Of a DNA stretch of 64,000 nt, positions 40,404 to 47,793 are shown one piece after another; the stretch's first letter is position 1, and the number at the start of each line of letters is the position of its first letter. The position numbers and the translations under genes are program-made. Under the pieces are notes generated by a model. The model was not told the origin of the DNA and did not search any database. It saw only the letters and a list, made by a program, of their open reading frames with translations. The DNA comes from Geitlerinema sp. BBD 1991-9. Lineage in GTDB: Bacteria; Cyanobacteriota; Cyanobacteriia; Cyanobacteriales; Geitlerinemataceae. The DNA lies in assembly GCA_001657325.1 (NCBI GenBank), contig LWRO01000002.1:222285-286284 (forward strand). The letters are read 5' to 3'.

Positions 40404-42098
40404 ATGAAAGCTTCGGTGGTGGTGTGGGCGTGTATGGGTATGTTATGGGGGGCAAAGCCCCTACCGTCGATACATCTGTTTCCACAGACGCTTGCCCAAT
40501 CTGTTCCGCCAGTGTCTCCCGATCTTTCACCACTCCCCGATCGATTGCCCCAGGACGAACCCGTGTTAGATCCGCCGTCGTTGGAGTTACCCGAACGCTC
40601 ACAACCGAGTTCGACGGGATCGATCGAGGTGCGGGACGTTCGCGTTTTGGGTAATACTGTATTCTCCGACGCGGATATTGCGGCAATTGTTGCACCTTAT
40701 CTCGGCCGTTCCGTGACATTTGAGGAACTGATCGCCTTGAGAACGGCAATTACCGATCTCTACGTCAGCAACGGTTACATTACCTCGGGCGCGTTTCTAC
40801 CACCGCAAGACGTGACGGATGGAATCATCCTCGTACAAGTGGTAGAAGGTCAGTTAGAATCGATCGAACTAGAGGGCTTAAAACGGCTCTCCGAAGGCTA
40901 CGTGCGAAATCGCATTCTCCGCGTCAGCGATCCGCCGTTGAATTTAGCGGAGTTGGAAGCCGCGTTACAACTGCTCCAAAACGATCCGGCGATCGAAACC
41001 ATTCGCGCGGAACTGACGGCGGGAAGTGCGCCAGGACTGAGTGTTTTGCGGTTGTCCCTCGAAGAAGTATTTCCGGTCAACGTTTCCCTGTGGGTGGAAA
41101 ATCGAGACGCACCCAGTGTGGGATCGATTCGGGGTTCTGTGGGGGTACAGGTTAACAGTCCCCTGGGAATCGGAGATCGACTCTTGGGAGAGTTGGGAAT
41201 TACATCGGGGGTGACAGAAGTATTTTTCGATTACACGGTTCCCCTAAATGCCAACAATACGAAACTGCGGGCATTTTACGAACGGGCGGGAAGTCGCATT
41301 GTCGAGGAACCCTTCGATCGACTAGATATTCGATCGACGGAAGAACACATTTCTTTCGGTATTTTGCATCCGGTGGTGGAAACGTCCCAGGAAGAATTCA
41401 CGTTAGGCGCATCGTTGGATTTGTTGAGATCGAGAACATTTATTTTTGACGACGAGCCGTTTTCGTTTTCAGAAGGCCCGGAAGACGGTCGATCGAGCGT
41501 GACGGCACTGCGGTTGATGCAGGAATGGACGAGGCGATCGCAACGGGATGTTTTGGCGGCTCGATCGCAGGTATCTTTCGGGTTAGATCTTTTCAATGCA
41601 ACCTCAAATGACGACGCACCCGATGGGGCGTTTTTAACCTGGCTGGGACAGTTTCAATGGGTGAGAGCGCTCTCTCCCGAGACGCTGTTAATCGCCCGTA
41701 TCGCCACACAACTTTCGACGGATGAATTATTGCCGATCGAGCAATTTAGCATCGGTGGAATCGATACGGTTCGGGGTTATCTTCAAAACCAACGGGTCGG
41801 CGATAGTGGAATTGTGGGATCTCTGGAGTTGCGTTTTCCTGTCGTTCGCGATCCGGGGGGATGGGGAACGATTCAACTGACCCCCTTTTTCGATGTCGGA
41901 ACAGTCTGGAGTTTGGGAGATCGAGAGATTCCGAGTCCCAGTACGCTCGTGGGAACGGGACTCGGGCTGAGATGGGAATTGTCTGAGGACTTTTCAGCCG
42001 CAGTGACTTGGGGAATTCCGTTAGTTTCGATCGACGATCGTGGAGATTCTCTACAGGGAGACGGAATTTATTTTTTGATTCGATACAATCCGTTTTAG
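40404..42098 (+). CDS. ShlB/FhaC-type two-partner secretion transporter (TpsB)
   Basis: The 564-residue outer-membrane protein has a signal segment (1-32), a proline-rich N-terminal linker (33-75), POTRA domains (about 78-230: IEVRDVRVLGNTVFSDADIAAIV, DGIILVQVVEGQLESIELEG) and a 16-strand beta-barrel ending in F (YFLIRYNPF). The conserved VRGY motif is seen in SIGGIDTVRGYLQNQ. It would secrete a TpsA exoprotein; the likely partner is at 57485, 15 kb away. The ATG at 40404 is supported by the position of the signal segment. Confidence 0.93.
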   Translation: MKASVVVWACMGMLWGAKPLPSIHLFPQTLAQSVPPVSPDLSPLPDRLPQDEPVLDPPSLELPERSQPSSTGSIEVRDVRVLGNTVFSDADIAAIVAPYLGRSVTFEELIALRTAITDLYVSNGYITSGAFLPPQDVTDGIILVQVVEGQLESIELEGLKRLSEGYVRNRILRVSDPPLNLAELEAALQLLQNDPAIETIRAELTAGSAPGLSVLRLSLEEVFPVNVSLWVENRDAPSVGSIRGSVGVQVNSPLGIGDRLLGELGITSGVTEVFFDYTVPLNANNTKLRAFYERAGSRIVEEPFDRLDIRSTEEHISFGILHPVVETSQEEFTLGASLDLLRSRTFIFDDEPFSFSEGPEDGRSSVTALRLMQEWTRRSQRDVLAARSQVSFGLDLFNATSNDDAPDGAFLTWLGQFQWVRALSPETLLIARIATQLSTDELLPIEQFSIGGIDTVRGYLQNQRVGDSGIVGSLELRFPVVRDPGGWGTIQLTPFFDVGTVWSLGDREIPSPSTLVGTGLGLRWELSEDFSAAVTWGIPLVSIDDRGDSLQGDGIYFLIRYNPF

Positions 42099-42293
42099 GC
42101 AGAAATATTGAACAAAAAAATAGTTCTCGCATTGTACGTAAGCTCTGGTCAAGACTAAAGCTCAACCAGCCAGAGACAAACGTAAAGGTGTCTAGAGCTG
42201 GGTCAGCATTTTGCGGGAGATCGCCGAGATACTGCTTAACAATTTTAGTAAAGTTTGATACGATTATTAGTCTTAGATATTTTAATTTGGCCT

Positions 42294-42319
42294 GCCAAAA
42301 AAATATACATTTTTTTGGC
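42294..42319. terminator. Perfect 11-bp hairpin downstream of TpsB
   Basis: GCCAAAAAAAT (42294-42304) pairs with ATTTTTTTGGC (42309-42319) around ATAC, followed by GATTTTTTTG. It is about 195 nt after the tpsB stop, in AT-rich DNA between the stop and a transposase fragment. It could be an intrinsic terminator. Confidence 0.6.
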
Positions 42320-42403
42320 GATTTTTTTGTTTTCTATCAATCAACACTTCTGAATTCGAGCGTTGATGGCGCATTCAATTTACAGTTTTGAGATGCACCC
42401 GAT

Positions 42404-42573
42404 GAAACTAATCCCATCCCGTTTAAACTCATGGCTTTAACGACGATGCCCGCGCTAACTTTCTCCGTCTTTTTTTCACCGAGCAAGTCGTTGATGATTC
42501 CGACGATTCCGAGGTCATCAATGATTCCAGCCACTAACCCCAAGTGGTCTAAATTTTTGATCTCTGCTGACAT
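42404..42573 (-). pseudogene. N-terminal fragment of a DUF4277 (IS1634/IS4-like) transposase
   Basis: The frame from ATG 42573 reads MSAEIKNLDHLGLVAGIIDD and continues with ...INDLLGE, EKVSAGIVVKAMSLNGMGLVSS, the N-terminal DUF4277 domain of IS1634-type transposases. Homology stops abruptly at TCGGGTGCATCTCA. The remaining residues to 42337 are unrelated, and the DDE catalytic part is missing. The fragment keeps its ribosome binding site (AAGGAAG). The broken end coincides with a 12-mer that also bounds the repeat element at 18.8 kb. Confidence 0.85.
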
Positions 42574-42883
42574 TTTTCTTCCTTTTACTGATGCCCACAT
42601 TTTGGGATGATGACAGAAAATCTCTTCGAGAGCTTACTTCACGCTCAAGCTTTTTTGTCAAGTTTTTTCTTTTGAATGTTATTTCCAAGTCAAAGAGTCA
42701 GTTGGCTGAGTCGAAATACTTAATCTCTTCAATCGCCCAGCTACACTACTTAAATGCTACACTTGGAGTGCGGAATGTGGGCTACAACCTCACTTTTGTC
42801 CGTCAACTAGGGTGTACGATCGCGAGCAGTATATGGAAGCTTCGTACACCCCGCTTTCATCTGAGTTATCACGAGTCTAATCT
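42574..42883. other. Spacer upstream of the methyltransferase gene, no gene seen
   Basis: The 310 nt between the transposase fragment and the methyltransferase contain no coding frame and no sure promoter. An AT-rich stretch with T-runs (about 42645-42680) and a GTACACCCC-like segment just before the gene are the only notable features. The methyltransferase promoter should lie here. Confidence 0.4.
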
Positions 42884-43708
42884 ATGTCACAACGTTCGGA
42901 GACTGTCGATCGCGCCCGTGAATACTACGACAGTGAAAACATGCTCAATTTTCACGATCTGATTTACGGTGAACACATCCATATCGGTATCTATCAAACT
43001 GGATGCGAATCAATTTCCGAAGCGAACCTTCAGACGCTTGAGACGATCGAAGGGTTACTCAAATTACACCCCGAACATAAGCTGGTAGATCTGGGTTCTG
43101 GTTATGGAGGAGCAGCACGCTACATCGTGAAAAGGGCGGGCTGTCATGTTGATTGCTTGAATCTAAGTACAGCCCAGAACAAAATCAACCGCCAGCTCAA
43201 CCAAGCGCAAGGCTTGGATACATTTATCCAAGTTTTTGATGGAAGCTTTCAAAACATTCCGTTTCCCGATCGAACCTACGACATAGCCCTATCTCAAGAT
43301 GCTCTGCTTTACAGCGACGATCGAGTTCGAGTATTCCAGGAAGTCTTCAGAGTATTACAGCCAAGCGGTCAATTTCTCTTGACTGACGTGATGCTCAAAA
43401 ATGACTGCCCTCTCAAGCTTCAAGCAAAGACTCAAGAAATCGTAGGGTTAAAGCTCGCTTCGGTTGAGAGCTATCGGGAAGTCGCTCGGGAAGTTGGTTT
43501 TAACACTCTCCAGATCGTCGAGATGCCACAGCAGGTTACTCGTCAATATCAGAAGACTCTCGACTCGCTAGAGTCGAATTTTGATAAGCTTTTGCAGTGT
43601 TGCAAGCGAGACTTCCTAGAGTATCAACGACGAAGACTCACTAACTGGATTGAAATCGGCAAACTAGATTACTTGAATTGGGGCATCTTACACTTCCAAA
43701 AGCTTTAG
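42884..43708 (+). CDS. SAM-dependent methyltransferase, sarcosine/dimethylglycine N-methyltransferase-like
   Basis: The 274-residue protein has the family lead YYDSENMLNFHDLIYGEHIHIGIYQ, SAM motif I LVDLGSGYGGAARYI (67-81), LNLSTAQNKINRQLNQAQGLD and QDALLYSDDRVRVFQEVFRVLQPSGQFLLTD. This resembles the SDMT enzymes that methylate sarcosine and dimethylglycine to betaine in halophilic cyanobacteria. The W-G-G-E-D stretch of true SDMTs is YGEHI here, so the substrate may differ. It is followed 4 nt later by an SDR and then an overlapping PLP gene, so a small biosynthetic operon is likely, with another amine as a possible substrate. Confidence 0.8.
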   Translation: MSQRSETVDRAREYYDSENMLNFHDLIYGEHIHIGIYQTGCESISEANLQTLETIEGLLKLHPEHKLVDLGSGYGGAARYIVKRAGCHVDCLNLSTAQNKINRQLNQAQGLDTFIQVFDGSFQNIPFPDRTYDIALSQDALLYSDDRVRVFQEVFRVLQPSGQFLLTDVMLKNDCPLKLQAKTQEIVGLKLASVESYREVAREVGFNTLQIVEMPQQVTRQYQKTLDSLESNFDKLLQCCKRDFLEYQRRRLTNWIEIGKLDYLNWGILHFQKL

Positions 43709-43712
43709 TTTT

Positions 43713-44501
43713 ATGGATTTAGCAATTGAGAAACGTACAGCACTTGTGTGTGCTTCCAGTAGCGGAATCGGTCGTGCCATCGCTCATTCTCTGGCTAGGG
43801 AAGGTGCAAAAGTTGCAATCTGCGCTCGAAGCGAGAAAAAACTAAGAGAAGCTCAAGTATCGCTACAGTCTGAAACGGGATCGGAGGTGATTGGTGTTAT
43901 CGCCGATCTGCGCTCTAAGGATGATATTCAACGGCTAATTGAGTCAGTTAACGAACAGCTTGGCTCGATCGATATTTTGGTGAATAATGTCGCGGGGCCA
44001 GCTCCTGGCGGACTGATGGAGCTGAGTGACGAGCAATGGCAAGCTGGATTCGAGCAAAGCTTGATGAGTGTCGTACGACTCACGAAAGCTGTCATACCGG
44101 AAATGCAAAGGCAAAAATGGGGACGAATTATCGCGATTGCTTCCAATACGGCCAAGGAACCAAGGGAAGGCATCCTCTTATCTTCTACACTCCGTGCTGC
44201 CGTTGCGGCCTTTAATAAAGGAATTTCACAGCGATTAGCCGCCCAAAATATTTTGGTGCATACAGTATGTCCGGGTCCGATCGGCACCGATCGGGTCTTA
44301 CAATTTACCCAAGACATAGCTCAATCTCGAGGTATTACTTTCGAACAAGCTCAAACTGTTCTGGTAGGCAATCTGCCGATGGAGAGAATGGGCAAACCGG
44401 AAGAGGTTGCCAGCTTGGTTTCCTATCTAGCTTCCGAACAGTCAAGTTTCATGACCGGAAATACAATTGTGATTGATGGGGGTCAGACGTCTACATGGTG
44501 A
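43713..44501 (+). CDS. Short-chain dehydrogenase/reductase with altered active site
   Basis: The 262-residue Rossmann protein has CASSSGIGRAIAHSLAREG instead of the usual T-G-x3-G-x-G, NNVAGPAPGG, RIIAIASNTAKEPREG, and PGPIGTDRVLQF. At the Y-x3-K position it reads S-S-T-L-R, so Tyr is replaced by Ser and Lys by Arg. A subfamily annotated as SDR/FabG-like oxidoreductase shares this S-x3-R pattern. It may be a poor oxidoreductase or use another mechanism. ATG 43713 follows the methyltransferase stop by 4 nt, and its stop overlaps the next gene by 7 nt. Confidence 0.85.
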   Translation: MDLAIEKRTALVCASSSGIGRAIAHSLAREGAKVAICARSEKKLREAQVSLQSETGSEVIGVIADLRSKDDIQRLIESVNEQLGSIDILVNNVAGPAPGGLMELSDEQWQAGFEQSLMSVVRLTKAVIPEMQRQKWGRIIAIASNTAKEPREGILLSSTLRAAVAAFNKGISQRLAAQNILVHTVCPGPIGTDRVLQFTQDIAQSRGITFEQAQTVLVGNLPMERMGKPEEVASLVSYLASEQSSFMTGNTIVIDGGQTSTW

Positions 44502-46015
44502 ATTTAATTAGTGCGGACAATCGAAGGGTATATGAGGACAATCAAGAGCAAGATGTCCTAGACGATCGTCTACTTCTTGAATTCAGGGTAAAAGATATAA
44601 AAAAGCGCATGAACTCTCTAGAGTTGATGCATCGAGAGTATCTTCTATTTTGTGAGACAGATCGTTCTACGCCTGACCTTGTTGGGGAAGAGGTCTCGCT
44701 TGCTGTCAAAGCAATTGCAGTCAAGATACTCGCAGAGTTGGAGTCGGACATTCCCGACTCTTCAGATATAACTTCTTACAGCGAATATATTACTCGTCAA
44801 AATTTTCGCATTCGCAATTTATTACTTCTCCTGAGGCAGTTTTGGAATCACCTAGAGTGGTCTTCTGCTTCCTACAGTCAGTCGGTCGTTCCTCACTTTT
44901 TTGATGTGAGGAAGCAGGAAGGAAGTATCGTCAATTACGATCGCTGGGAGAGTTTTGCCATTGCAAATCTCGAAGAGGAATTATCAGAACTATACCAACT
45001 GAACGAGCGGTGGAGTCTCATCTTGACGTCATCGGGAATGGCGGCCTATGCAACCATTCATAATTACCTCACTCGATATTTATCTTACGGCGATGAGGTT
45101 CTGATTCCAGTCCCTATCTATCATGAAGCTGAATCTCTTTTGGCGGCGGTTTCAGGAATTCAGATCGTTACCCCAGGCACCGTTAATGTTGAGGAGATTT
45201 TGACGTCGATTCGTTCGACAACGAAAGTCATCTGTCTCACTCCGATAACCAACGATGAGTCTCTCCGATTCATAGATGTCAATGCTTTGATGGAGAAACT
45301 CAACTCGATCGATCGGGAGATTTTGGTTGTTTTTGACGGTACGATGAGTGGTGGGTTAATCCGACCCGAACAGTTTGTCGATCTTAACAGCCACGTAAAA
45401 CTCCTCTATTTTGAAAGTGGGAACAAGTATCAACAGTTTGAAGATACGGCAATGAAAGGAATTATCATTGTTCCCCAAGCTTTGAAACAGGAATTTACTT
45501 CCATTCGGCGAGAAATCGGGACGATCTTGTACGATTGGGCAGCTTGCTGCCTACCGCAGTCAATTTCGATTGAAGAGCTAAAGCTCAAGATGGGACGTTT
45601 TGCTCGTAATGCTTTGACGATCGGCAATCGGGTAAACAACGACGTGGATCTACAGAATTTTTGTACGGTCAACTATCCACTCGATCCTTCACATCCAGAT
45701 TTCACAACAGCCCGTAAATATTTCTCCGCTCAGCTGGGTGGAGTCGTGACGTTGTCCTTCACCAGTCAAGAATTTTACGATCGAGAAAAACTAGATCGCC
45801 TTATTAACAGATTAATCGATCGATGTCAATCTCGTCGCATCCCTTTTTGTAAAGGCGATAGCTACGGATTTTCAATCCCCCGAATTCACATAGGCGGTTC
45901 TAAAACCGACAAGCCATTTCTGCGACTTTGTGTCGGCAGTCGATCGTTCGACGAAACAGATGCCTTTTTAGAATGCTTGCTCGACTGCCTTAAATCCGAA
46001 GTTGCAACTGTATAG
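44495..46015 (+). CDS. PLP-dependent enzyme of uncertain type (Cys/Met metabolism-like fold)
   Basis: The 506-residue protein has an unusual 150-residue N-terminal region with no recognised motif, then a fold-type I PLP domain: LILTSSGMAAYATIHNYLTRYLSYGDEVLIP (cofactor phosphate loop 178-182), VVFDGTMSGGLI (D281, pyridine contact) and YFESGNKYQQF (K311, Schiff-base lysine). The order S-S-G-M-A-A, D, S-x-x-K resembles cystathionine gamma-synthase/Cys-Met enzymes, but the overall similarity is weak. It is translationally coupled to the SDR. The reaction is unknown; amine or sulfur amino-acid chemistry is possible. Confidence 0.7.
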   Translation: MVNLISADNRRVYEDNQEQDVLDDRLLLEFRVKDIKKRMNSLELMHREYLLFCETDRSTPDLVGEEVSLAVKAIAVKILAELESDIPDSSDITSYSEYITRQNFRIRNLLLLLRQFWNHLEWSSASYSQSVVPHFFDVRKQEGSIVNYDRWESFAIANLEEELSELYQLNERWSLILTSSGMAAYATIHNYLTRYLSYGDEVLIPVPIYHEAESLLAAVSGIQIVTPGTVNVEEILTSIRSTTKVICLTPITNDESLRFIDVNALMEKLNSIDREILVVFDGTMSGGLIRPEQFVDLNSHVKLLYFESGNKYQQFEDTAMKGIIIVPQALKQEFTSIRREIGTILYDWAACCLPQSISIEELKLKMGRFARNALTIGNRVNNDVDLQNFCTVNYPLDPSHPDFTTARKYFSAQLGGVVTLSFTSQEFYDREKLDRLINRLIDRCQSRRIPFCKGDSYGFSIPRIHIGGSKTDKPFLRLCVGSRSFDETDAFLECLLDCLKSEVATV

Positions 46016-46130
46016 ACGCGAGAGTTTTGGAGGAACGGTGGACGTTACCTTAAATGTCGAAAGAAGGCTGCCGCTAGACCGGGATGGTTAGCGGGGAGAT
46101 GAATTTCGACCCAAAAAGGAAACTGAGCGC
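46016..46130 (+). ncRNA. Possible remnant of a TnpB-type omega RNA or right end
   Basis: CCGCTA (46071-46076) and TAGCGG (46089-46094) enclose GACCGGGATGGT, followed by GGAGATGAATTTCGAC. G-C-T-G-C-C-G-C-T-A...A-G-C-G-G-x-G-A-G is reminiscent of the 3' omega RNA of IS605-type tnpB genes. The matching upstream tnpB is absent, because the PLP gene ends at 46015. This is a weak identification made by memory of the motif. Confidence 0.3.
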
Positions 46131-46180
46131 CGCGAATCCTTATAGAGTCCCCAACGATGGGTAAAGTCGGTTAAGATGGC

Positions 46181-46595
46181 ATGATGTTAGTCATCGAAGC
46201 CAAACTGAAGGGAACGGCATCCCAGTACGCCAAATTAGACAAAGCTATCCGAACAGCGCAGTTCGTTCGGAACAAGTGTCTTCGTCACTGGATGGACAAT
46301 AAAAGGGGTCACGCGCAATGACCTCCAAAAGCTCTGTTCCCAACTGGCTAAAAATCCCGAAACCCCTTGGGCAAAAAAGCTCAACTCCCAAGCTCGAAAG
46401 AGTTCTGCTGACCGTGCGTGGGCTGCAATTTCTCGGTTTTATACCAACTGTAAACAGAACGTCAAAGGCAAGAAAGGTTATCCCAAAGATCAAAAATTTA
46501 ACCGTTCGGTTGAATACAAAAAGACAGGATGGCGTTTATCTCCCGACCGAAAAGAAATCGAGTTTATTGACGAATTCAAAGCCGGTAAATTTTAA
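46181..46595 (+). pseudogene. Frameshifted and truncated TnpB (IS605 OrfB) gene
   Basis: The start MLVIEAKLKGTASQYAKLDKAIRTAQFVRNKCLRHWMDN (from 46184, or 46181 with two methionines) is the typical TnpB N-terminus. At about 46312 the frame breaks (AAAAGGGG, one extra base) and continues in another frame as TRNDLQKLCSQLAKNPETPWAKKLNSQARKSS...GWRLSPDRKEIEFIDEFKAGKF, ending at a stop at 46595. The RuvC catalytic part is missing, so it is inactive. It marks the right border of the methyltransferase/SDR/PLP set. Confidence 0.85.
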
Positions 46596-47055
46596 CTTTG
46601 GACGAGCCAAGATGTTTTTTTCTGGGATGTCATTTTTACACAAATTTCTCTTTTTTCTCTGTCTTAATCCCTAACCGATTCCAGACTAATGTCATCGCCA
46701 CGTCGTGCTACTTGATATGCTACAAATTGAAGTAAGGTTTTAATTCTTATAGAATTTTACGAATCAGTTAGACCTGCTATACAATATCTTTTTTTAATTT
46801 GGAATATTGATAAATTAAAAAATAAATATACAACTAAACTCGTATAAAGTGAAATAGTGAAATTAGGTGCGAGATCGTGCCAAAAATAAGGACTCTTGCG
46901 TCCGTTCACAGCGCAAGGATAGTCGATCGAAGCGTCCCGATCTGGGTGTCCTGGCATCTGAGCGCCACGATTGTAAATTTGCTGCCACTGATTCCCTAAA
47001 AAACCCAAATGCCTCCACAATCGTAAACATCAATAGATTGTGGGTAGAACGTTTC
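46596..47055. other. AT-rich spacer, no gene seen
   Basis: These 460 nt between the TnpB remnant and the DUF4079 gene are AT-rich (about 46600-46860, with poly-T and poly-A runs) and then return to normal composition. The open frame leading into the DUF4079 gene from 46867 does not look like coding sequence. The DUF4079 promoter should lie in the last 150 nt. Confidence 0.5.
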
Positions 47056-47793
47056 ATGAATGCCAAAGACATTCTCAGCTTAATTCATCCAGCCATCGCC
47101 GTTGCATTCGTCTTCCCCATCGTGGGAATCGTGGTGAACTTCGCACTGCAAACGCGCCAACGGCGATTACATCCGAATGAAAGTAAAAAAATTCCACCCG
47201 TGGTGGGACGCGAACATCTCAAATACGGACGTTGGCTGACGGGTTCTGTCGTCGGCGTGACGTTAATCGCCCTAGCGTATTCAATTTTTATCAAACAACC
47301 GTTTTTTACGGGAAAACCGCCGTTTCAAATGGGTTTTATCATTGCCATGTTCGTTTTCACCATTGCAGCGTTAGTGCTGCTGTATCGAACGCGGCCGAAT
47401 CAACCTCTGTGGCGGGCGGTTTTTGCCACGCTTTCGAGTGCAGGATTAATCGTGCTAGGTTGCCAAGACGGCGTGTTTCGTCGCACGAGCGAATGGTACC
47501 TTTCCCATTACTACTTCGGTATTGTCGTCTCGATTCTAATGGTAGTTTCGCTGACCATCGTTCCCGAAATCTACAAACACCAACGTTGGCGCGTCACCCA
47601 CACGGTTCTCAATACCTTAGCAGCGTTACTGTTTCTCGGACAGGCGATGACTGGAGCGCGAGATTTATTGGAAATTCCCCTCAGTTGGCAAGCACCTTTT
47701 TTATATCAGTGCGATTGGCAAAATCGCGTGTGTCCCGAACCACAGTCTTCTCAACCCGTTGAGGGACACGTCGCCAAAGCACCGAGGTTTTAG
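47056..47793 (+). CDS. DUF4079 family membrane protein
   Basis: The 245-residue protein starts MNAKDILSLIHPAIAVAFVFPIVG and has about six membrane helices (10-30, 60-80, 88-105, 115-135, 145-165, 178-195). Histidines in LIHPAIAV and SHYYFGIV could bind haem, as in the related cytochrome b561/DUF4079 group. The C-terminal tail (CDWQNRVCPEPQSSQP) is soluble. The function is not established. The ATG at 47056 was chosen because the first helix begins there. Confidence 0.85.
   Translation: MNAKDILSLIHPAIAVAFVFPIVGIVVNFALQTRQRRLHPNESKKIPPVVGREHLKYGRWLTGSVVGVTLIALAYSIFIKQPFFTGKPPFQMGFIIAMFVFTIAALVLLYRTRPNQPLWRAVFATLSSAGLIVLGCQDGVFRRTSEWYLSHYYFGIVVSILMVVSLTIVPEIYKHQRWRVTHTVLNTLAALLFLGQAMTGARDLLEIPLSWQAPFLYQCDWQNRVCPEPQSSQPVEGHVAKAPRF

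Follow-up and report, generated by a model that had tools for sequence, protein, structure and literature searches.

Gene content and surroundings of the locus

Three adjacent genes on the forward strand of the window (the whole 64,000-nt stretch of DNA analysed here, to which all coordinates refer unless another locus is named) encode a class I methyltransferase of the SDMT clade (MT; 42884-43708, 274 aa; assigned by NF041675, the structure 2o57 and a tree), an SDR without Tyr-x3-Lys that resembles PRK08339 and AerF (43713-44501, 262 aa; NF006212, 6jh7) and a PLP-dependent fold type I enzyme of Cys/Met metabolism (44495-46015, 506 aa; PF01053). According to the ORF list, MT and SDR are separated by 4 nt and the SDR and PLP genes overlap by 7 nt, in agreement with the tight packing described in the original prediction, and this packing together with the gene order kept in other cyanobacteria supports its view that the three genes apparently form one operon. 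A literature search found no paper on this MT-SDR-PLP trio.

Upstream of the trio lies the gene of a ShlB-type outer-membrane transporter (40404-42098) and downstream a DUF4079 gene (46867-47793). Beside the trio, the stretches read contain no small-molecule transporter, ligase, NRPS or regulator, and therefore the three enzymes may be just part of a pathway. A perfect 10-nt inverted repeat without strand assignment (42810-42851), which occurs only once in the genome, is located 32 nt 5' of the MT start and is absent upstream of the trio copy in Okeania. An Rfam search around the operon gave no match, and the leader RNA in front of MT folds no better than shuffled sequences. Further upstream, at 42293-42320, we noticed a terminator-like palindrome (GCCAAAAAAAT...ATTTTTTTGGC) with ten further matches across the genome.

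On both sides, the trio is accompanied by remains of insertion sequences (IS). The reverse strand upstream carries a truncated IS transposase (5' end; 42108-42352), which is IS4-like by reading and has 82-84% DNA identity to copies elsewhere in the genome, and a truncated DUF4277 transposase of the IS1634 type (42337-42600; E 5.9e-16, profile positions 2-55 of 109), for which the DNA match to another genomic copy covers 42401-42790. Downstream, a broken TnpB remnant of the IS200/IS605 type (46043-46613, forward strand) is split over two frames; its other copies in the genome share 89-91% identity with it, and a longer one of them shows a weak OrfB_IS605 match. Each of the three IS remains has further copies in this genome, at identities within 82-91%. 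Since the short IS fragments alone have no match in Pfam, they were identified by reading and by DNA matches to these copies. The truncated DUF4277 gene and the broken TnpB had both been predicted and are real; the IS fragment at 42108-42352 is an addition to the prediction.

The predicted AT-richness was also found when G+C was computed per gene. The values are 0.456 for MT, 0.483 for SDR and 0.440 for the PLP gene compared with 0.513 for the window overall, and the respective third-position values are 0.487, 0.422 and 0.446, with most window ORFs at 0.50-0.65. The shift is moderate, and a few other window ORFs are equally low in G+C.

Family membership and changed features of the three enzymes

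The PLP protein matches PF01053 from residue 124 (84.9 bits versus a gathering cut-off of 27; E 5.5e-24) and does not reach the NCBIfam equivalog cut-off of any PF01053 enzyme type (CGS, CGL, MGL, sulfhydrylase), with 74.6 versus 477 bits in the best case. Its motifs are NYDR (147-150), SSGM (179-182), Asp281, Lys311 and Arg477. Lys311 and Asp281 align to PLP-binding residues of 7bqw, namely the PLP lysine and the aspartate at the PLP ring, and Y148-x-R150 (phosphate-binding) and Arg477 (carboxylate arginine) are assigned by motif only and are invariant in the alignment of relatives. By profile and motifs, the protein is a divergent fold type I enzyme of Cys/Met metabolism with its catalytic motifs kept. 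The assumption of an unfamiliar PLP class did therefore not hold, as the core is a PF01053 enzyme and only the N-terminus is unmatched. Core fold and PLP motifs are common to methionine gamma-lyase, cystathionine gamma-synthase and Fub7, from which the trio protein differs by an extra N-terminus of ~120 residues; in addition, it has 'SGNKY' and 'DGT' where 7bqw has 'SATKY' and 'DNT', and its identity to solved Cys/Met enzymes is low (16-21% in the Foldseek rows). Methionine gamma-lyases are the top solved structures by sequence and, using a low-confidence model, also by fold. The PF01053 fold alone is compatible with elimination, replacement, racemisation and C-S lysis alike.

The N-terminal extension of this protein (44495-44854, forward strand) found no family match in profile searches, as predicted, but comprises about 90-120 residues instead of 150, since Pfam aligns only from residue 124 onwards and N-Y-x-R occupies 147-150. 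It is 47.5% identical to the Symploca counterpart. The AlphaFold model has a mean pLDDT of 59, with the N-terminal part mostly at 50-63, so that the predicted helical character is of low confidence, a helical bundle is only suggested and the N-terminal fold is unsettled; we thus used only the match of the Cys/Met core.

Outside the three cyanobacteria with the trio, the nearest PLP relative found is WP_005730260.1 (L003:4612-7170) on plasmid pCOR1804 of Pseudomonas amygdali pv. aesculi. In this protein, a fold type II Ser/Thr dehydratase (PALP) domain is fused ahead of a fold type I Cys/Met PLP domain. The C-terminal part is 31% identical to the trio PLP core over about 400 aa, with the PLP motifs kept even at this distance, and the region before the core shows a weak likeness (23%) to the trio N-terminus. 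A GNAT gene follows the fusion gene, IS elements lie around it, and no MT or SDR is annotated beside it.

For the MT, homology to the SDMT structure 2o57 is full-length (E 8e-48), and the score against NF041675 (SDMT) is 214.5 bits, below the curated cut-off of 550. In a tree that also includes 17 further SDMT-family members from the order, the MTs of the window genome, Okeania, Symploca and genome G118 form a clade of four (support 100/100), which is, on this tree, the sister of SDMT. The G118 gene (G118:C373:114611-115420, L010), 55% identical, stands alone, as no SDR or PLP gene is present in the 3.8 kb read. Eight alignment columns set the clade apart from the 17 others, including His to Tyr143 and Pro to Val169. 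According to a published study, D158/H162 of GsSDMT and P171/M172 of the A. halophytica DMT contact or affect the methyl acceptor (PMC3176816). At the equivalent positions, all four clade members have both replacements and keep Asp139 and Met170, so that the acceptor Asp and Met occur in SDMT and the trio MT alike; besides, W-G-G of SDMT corresponds to Y-G. Hence, the predicted SDMT-like MT is correct with respect to the family (NF041675, 2o57) but not with respect to these two acceptor positions. A changed methyl acceptor is therefore likely, and the enzyme is unlikely to act on sarcosine or dimethylglycine.

The SDR matches NF006212 (PRK08339-like; 4e-59), and its closest solved relative by sequence is AerF (6jh7; E 1.4e-52; Z 26.4), a C=C reductase of aeruginosin biosynthesis. 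Its active site contains Ser157-x3-Arg161, and the classical Tyr-x3-Lys is not present. The predicted S-x3-R is therefore real, but it is not odd: 2z1n and 1o5i also have it and represent a known SDR subgroup, and the AerF/PRK08339 group is known as well. AerF likewise lacks Tyr-x3-Lys, whereas in the alignment it has S-x3-N in place of S-x3-R, and for this reason carrying its reaction over to the trio SDR is an analogy. By this analogy, we propose an NAD(P)H-dependent double-bond reduction; aeruginosin genes are absent from the stretches read around the trio. The nearest SDRs outside the trio (47-50%) are encoded at two loci in two genomes (L088, L089). Neighbouring genes at both encode a TenA-like protein and an MBL hydrolase; one locus additionally has an asparagine synthetase-like gene, and the other one a gene resembling phytanoyl-CoA dioxygenase. 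By reading, these loci look biosynthetic.

Occurrence and probable mobility of the trio

When 84,980 species genomes were screened for close relatives of the PLP protein with exact peptide patterns followed by tblastn, two loci were recovered, one in Okeania sp. SIO3B5 and the other in Symploca sp. SIO2C1. Since such a pattern-based scan catches only close relatives, more distant copies may exist. Okeania has MT, SDR and PLP genes in identical order and with an identical 7-nt SDR-PLP overlap; its PLP gene contains an in-frame stop at residue 115, which may reflect decay or an error in sequencing. The Symploca copy is divided between two contigs, with MT and the beginning of the SDR at the end of one and the remaining SDR and the PLP gene at the start of the other; these ends have 129 nt in common at 99% (BLAST), with no exact end overlap. 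The search for the gene order suggested with the original prediction thus recovered it in Okeania and, on two contig ends, in Symploca. Identities to the relatives in the other trio genomes are 56% (MT), 67% (SDR) and ~60% (PLP). In protein searches, the trio is present in 2 of the 196 genomes of the order (window genome included), in one of 22 genomes of the Symploca family and in one of 14 of the window's own family, and a class sample of 390 genomes contained no further trio.

The trio is rare and patchy, with three cyanobacterial genomes among those searched, which is the pattern expected for a transferred cassette. Together with the IS remains on both sides and the lower G+C, this favours the transferred island of the original prediction, and we regard the trio as a mobile-looking, IS-flanked cassette that was probably moved horizontally. 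In the nearest available relative (G131), the genes flanking the trio lie ~2.6 Mb apart, and for this reason no empty site could be demonstrated. The Okeania copy is followed after ~1 kb by a TnpB fragment (L005:10448-10801; OrfB_IS605, E 7.1e-12).

Proposed pathway and alternatives

From these data we infer the reactions, their order and the product class of a putative pathway. The Cys/Met-type PLP enzyme would activate an amino acid whose C-beta or C-gamma carries a leaving group and eliminate or replace this group; the resulting amino-acid intermediate would be unsaturated or altered in its chain. In an AerF-like manner, the SDR would then reduce a conjugated C=C (or imine) of this intermediate at the expense of NAD(P)H, and the MT would finally methylate the amino nitrogen. 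A small amine or amino-acid product, as originally predicted, is supported as probable, and for the full reading, a horizontally moved three-gene operon that makes a small N-methylated non-protein amino acid (or amine), we see roughly an even chance.

The best-surviving alternative, still unlikely, is a variant sulfur pathway, in which the PLP enzyme would act as C-S lyase or in gamma-replacement on sulfur amino acids and the MT would methylate a thiol or thioether sulfur instead of nitrogen. The methionine gamma-lyases as nearest solved relatives and the altered MT acceptor site would fit, but Cys/Met PLP enzymes resemble each other at such distance regardless of substrate, a normal PF01053 enzyme (475.8 bits) is already encoded in the genome, and the MT adjoins N-methyltransferases in the tree, from whose family we infer methylation on N and not on S or O. 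A betaine-type osmolyte route with glycine betaine or a close homologue as MT product is suggested by the relationship to the SDMT family, yet very improbable: the NF041675 score is far below its cut-off (214.5 versus 550), the trio has no adjoining GSMT gene, in contrast to locus L011, and the replacements Tyr143 for His and Val169 for Pro, at acceptor positions named in the published study, imply that the MT is probably no betaine enzyme. That the trio consists of decaying, non-working genes carried as IS debris, to which the stop in the Okeania PLP gene and the breakage of every flanking IS would point, is highly unlikely, given that all three window ORFs are intact and retain their motifs, with relatives at 56-67% identity, and that the SDR-PLP overlap is preserved in Okeania.

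The families of the trio are known, and judged from their sequences they form a rare cassette in which each family has a changed specificity feature. More tentatively, and with somewhat less than even probability, the pathway itself may be new, with a new N-methylated amino acid as product and a new Cys/Met PLP subfamily with a helical N-terminal domain of its own, to which the Ser/Thr dehydratase fusion of Pseudomonas would be a counterpart. This Pseudomonas relative offers a second, independent system for reading the chemistry. As a compact three-enzyme unit, the trio could lead to a new cyanobacterial amino acid and add a new branch to the Cys/Met PLP enzymes.
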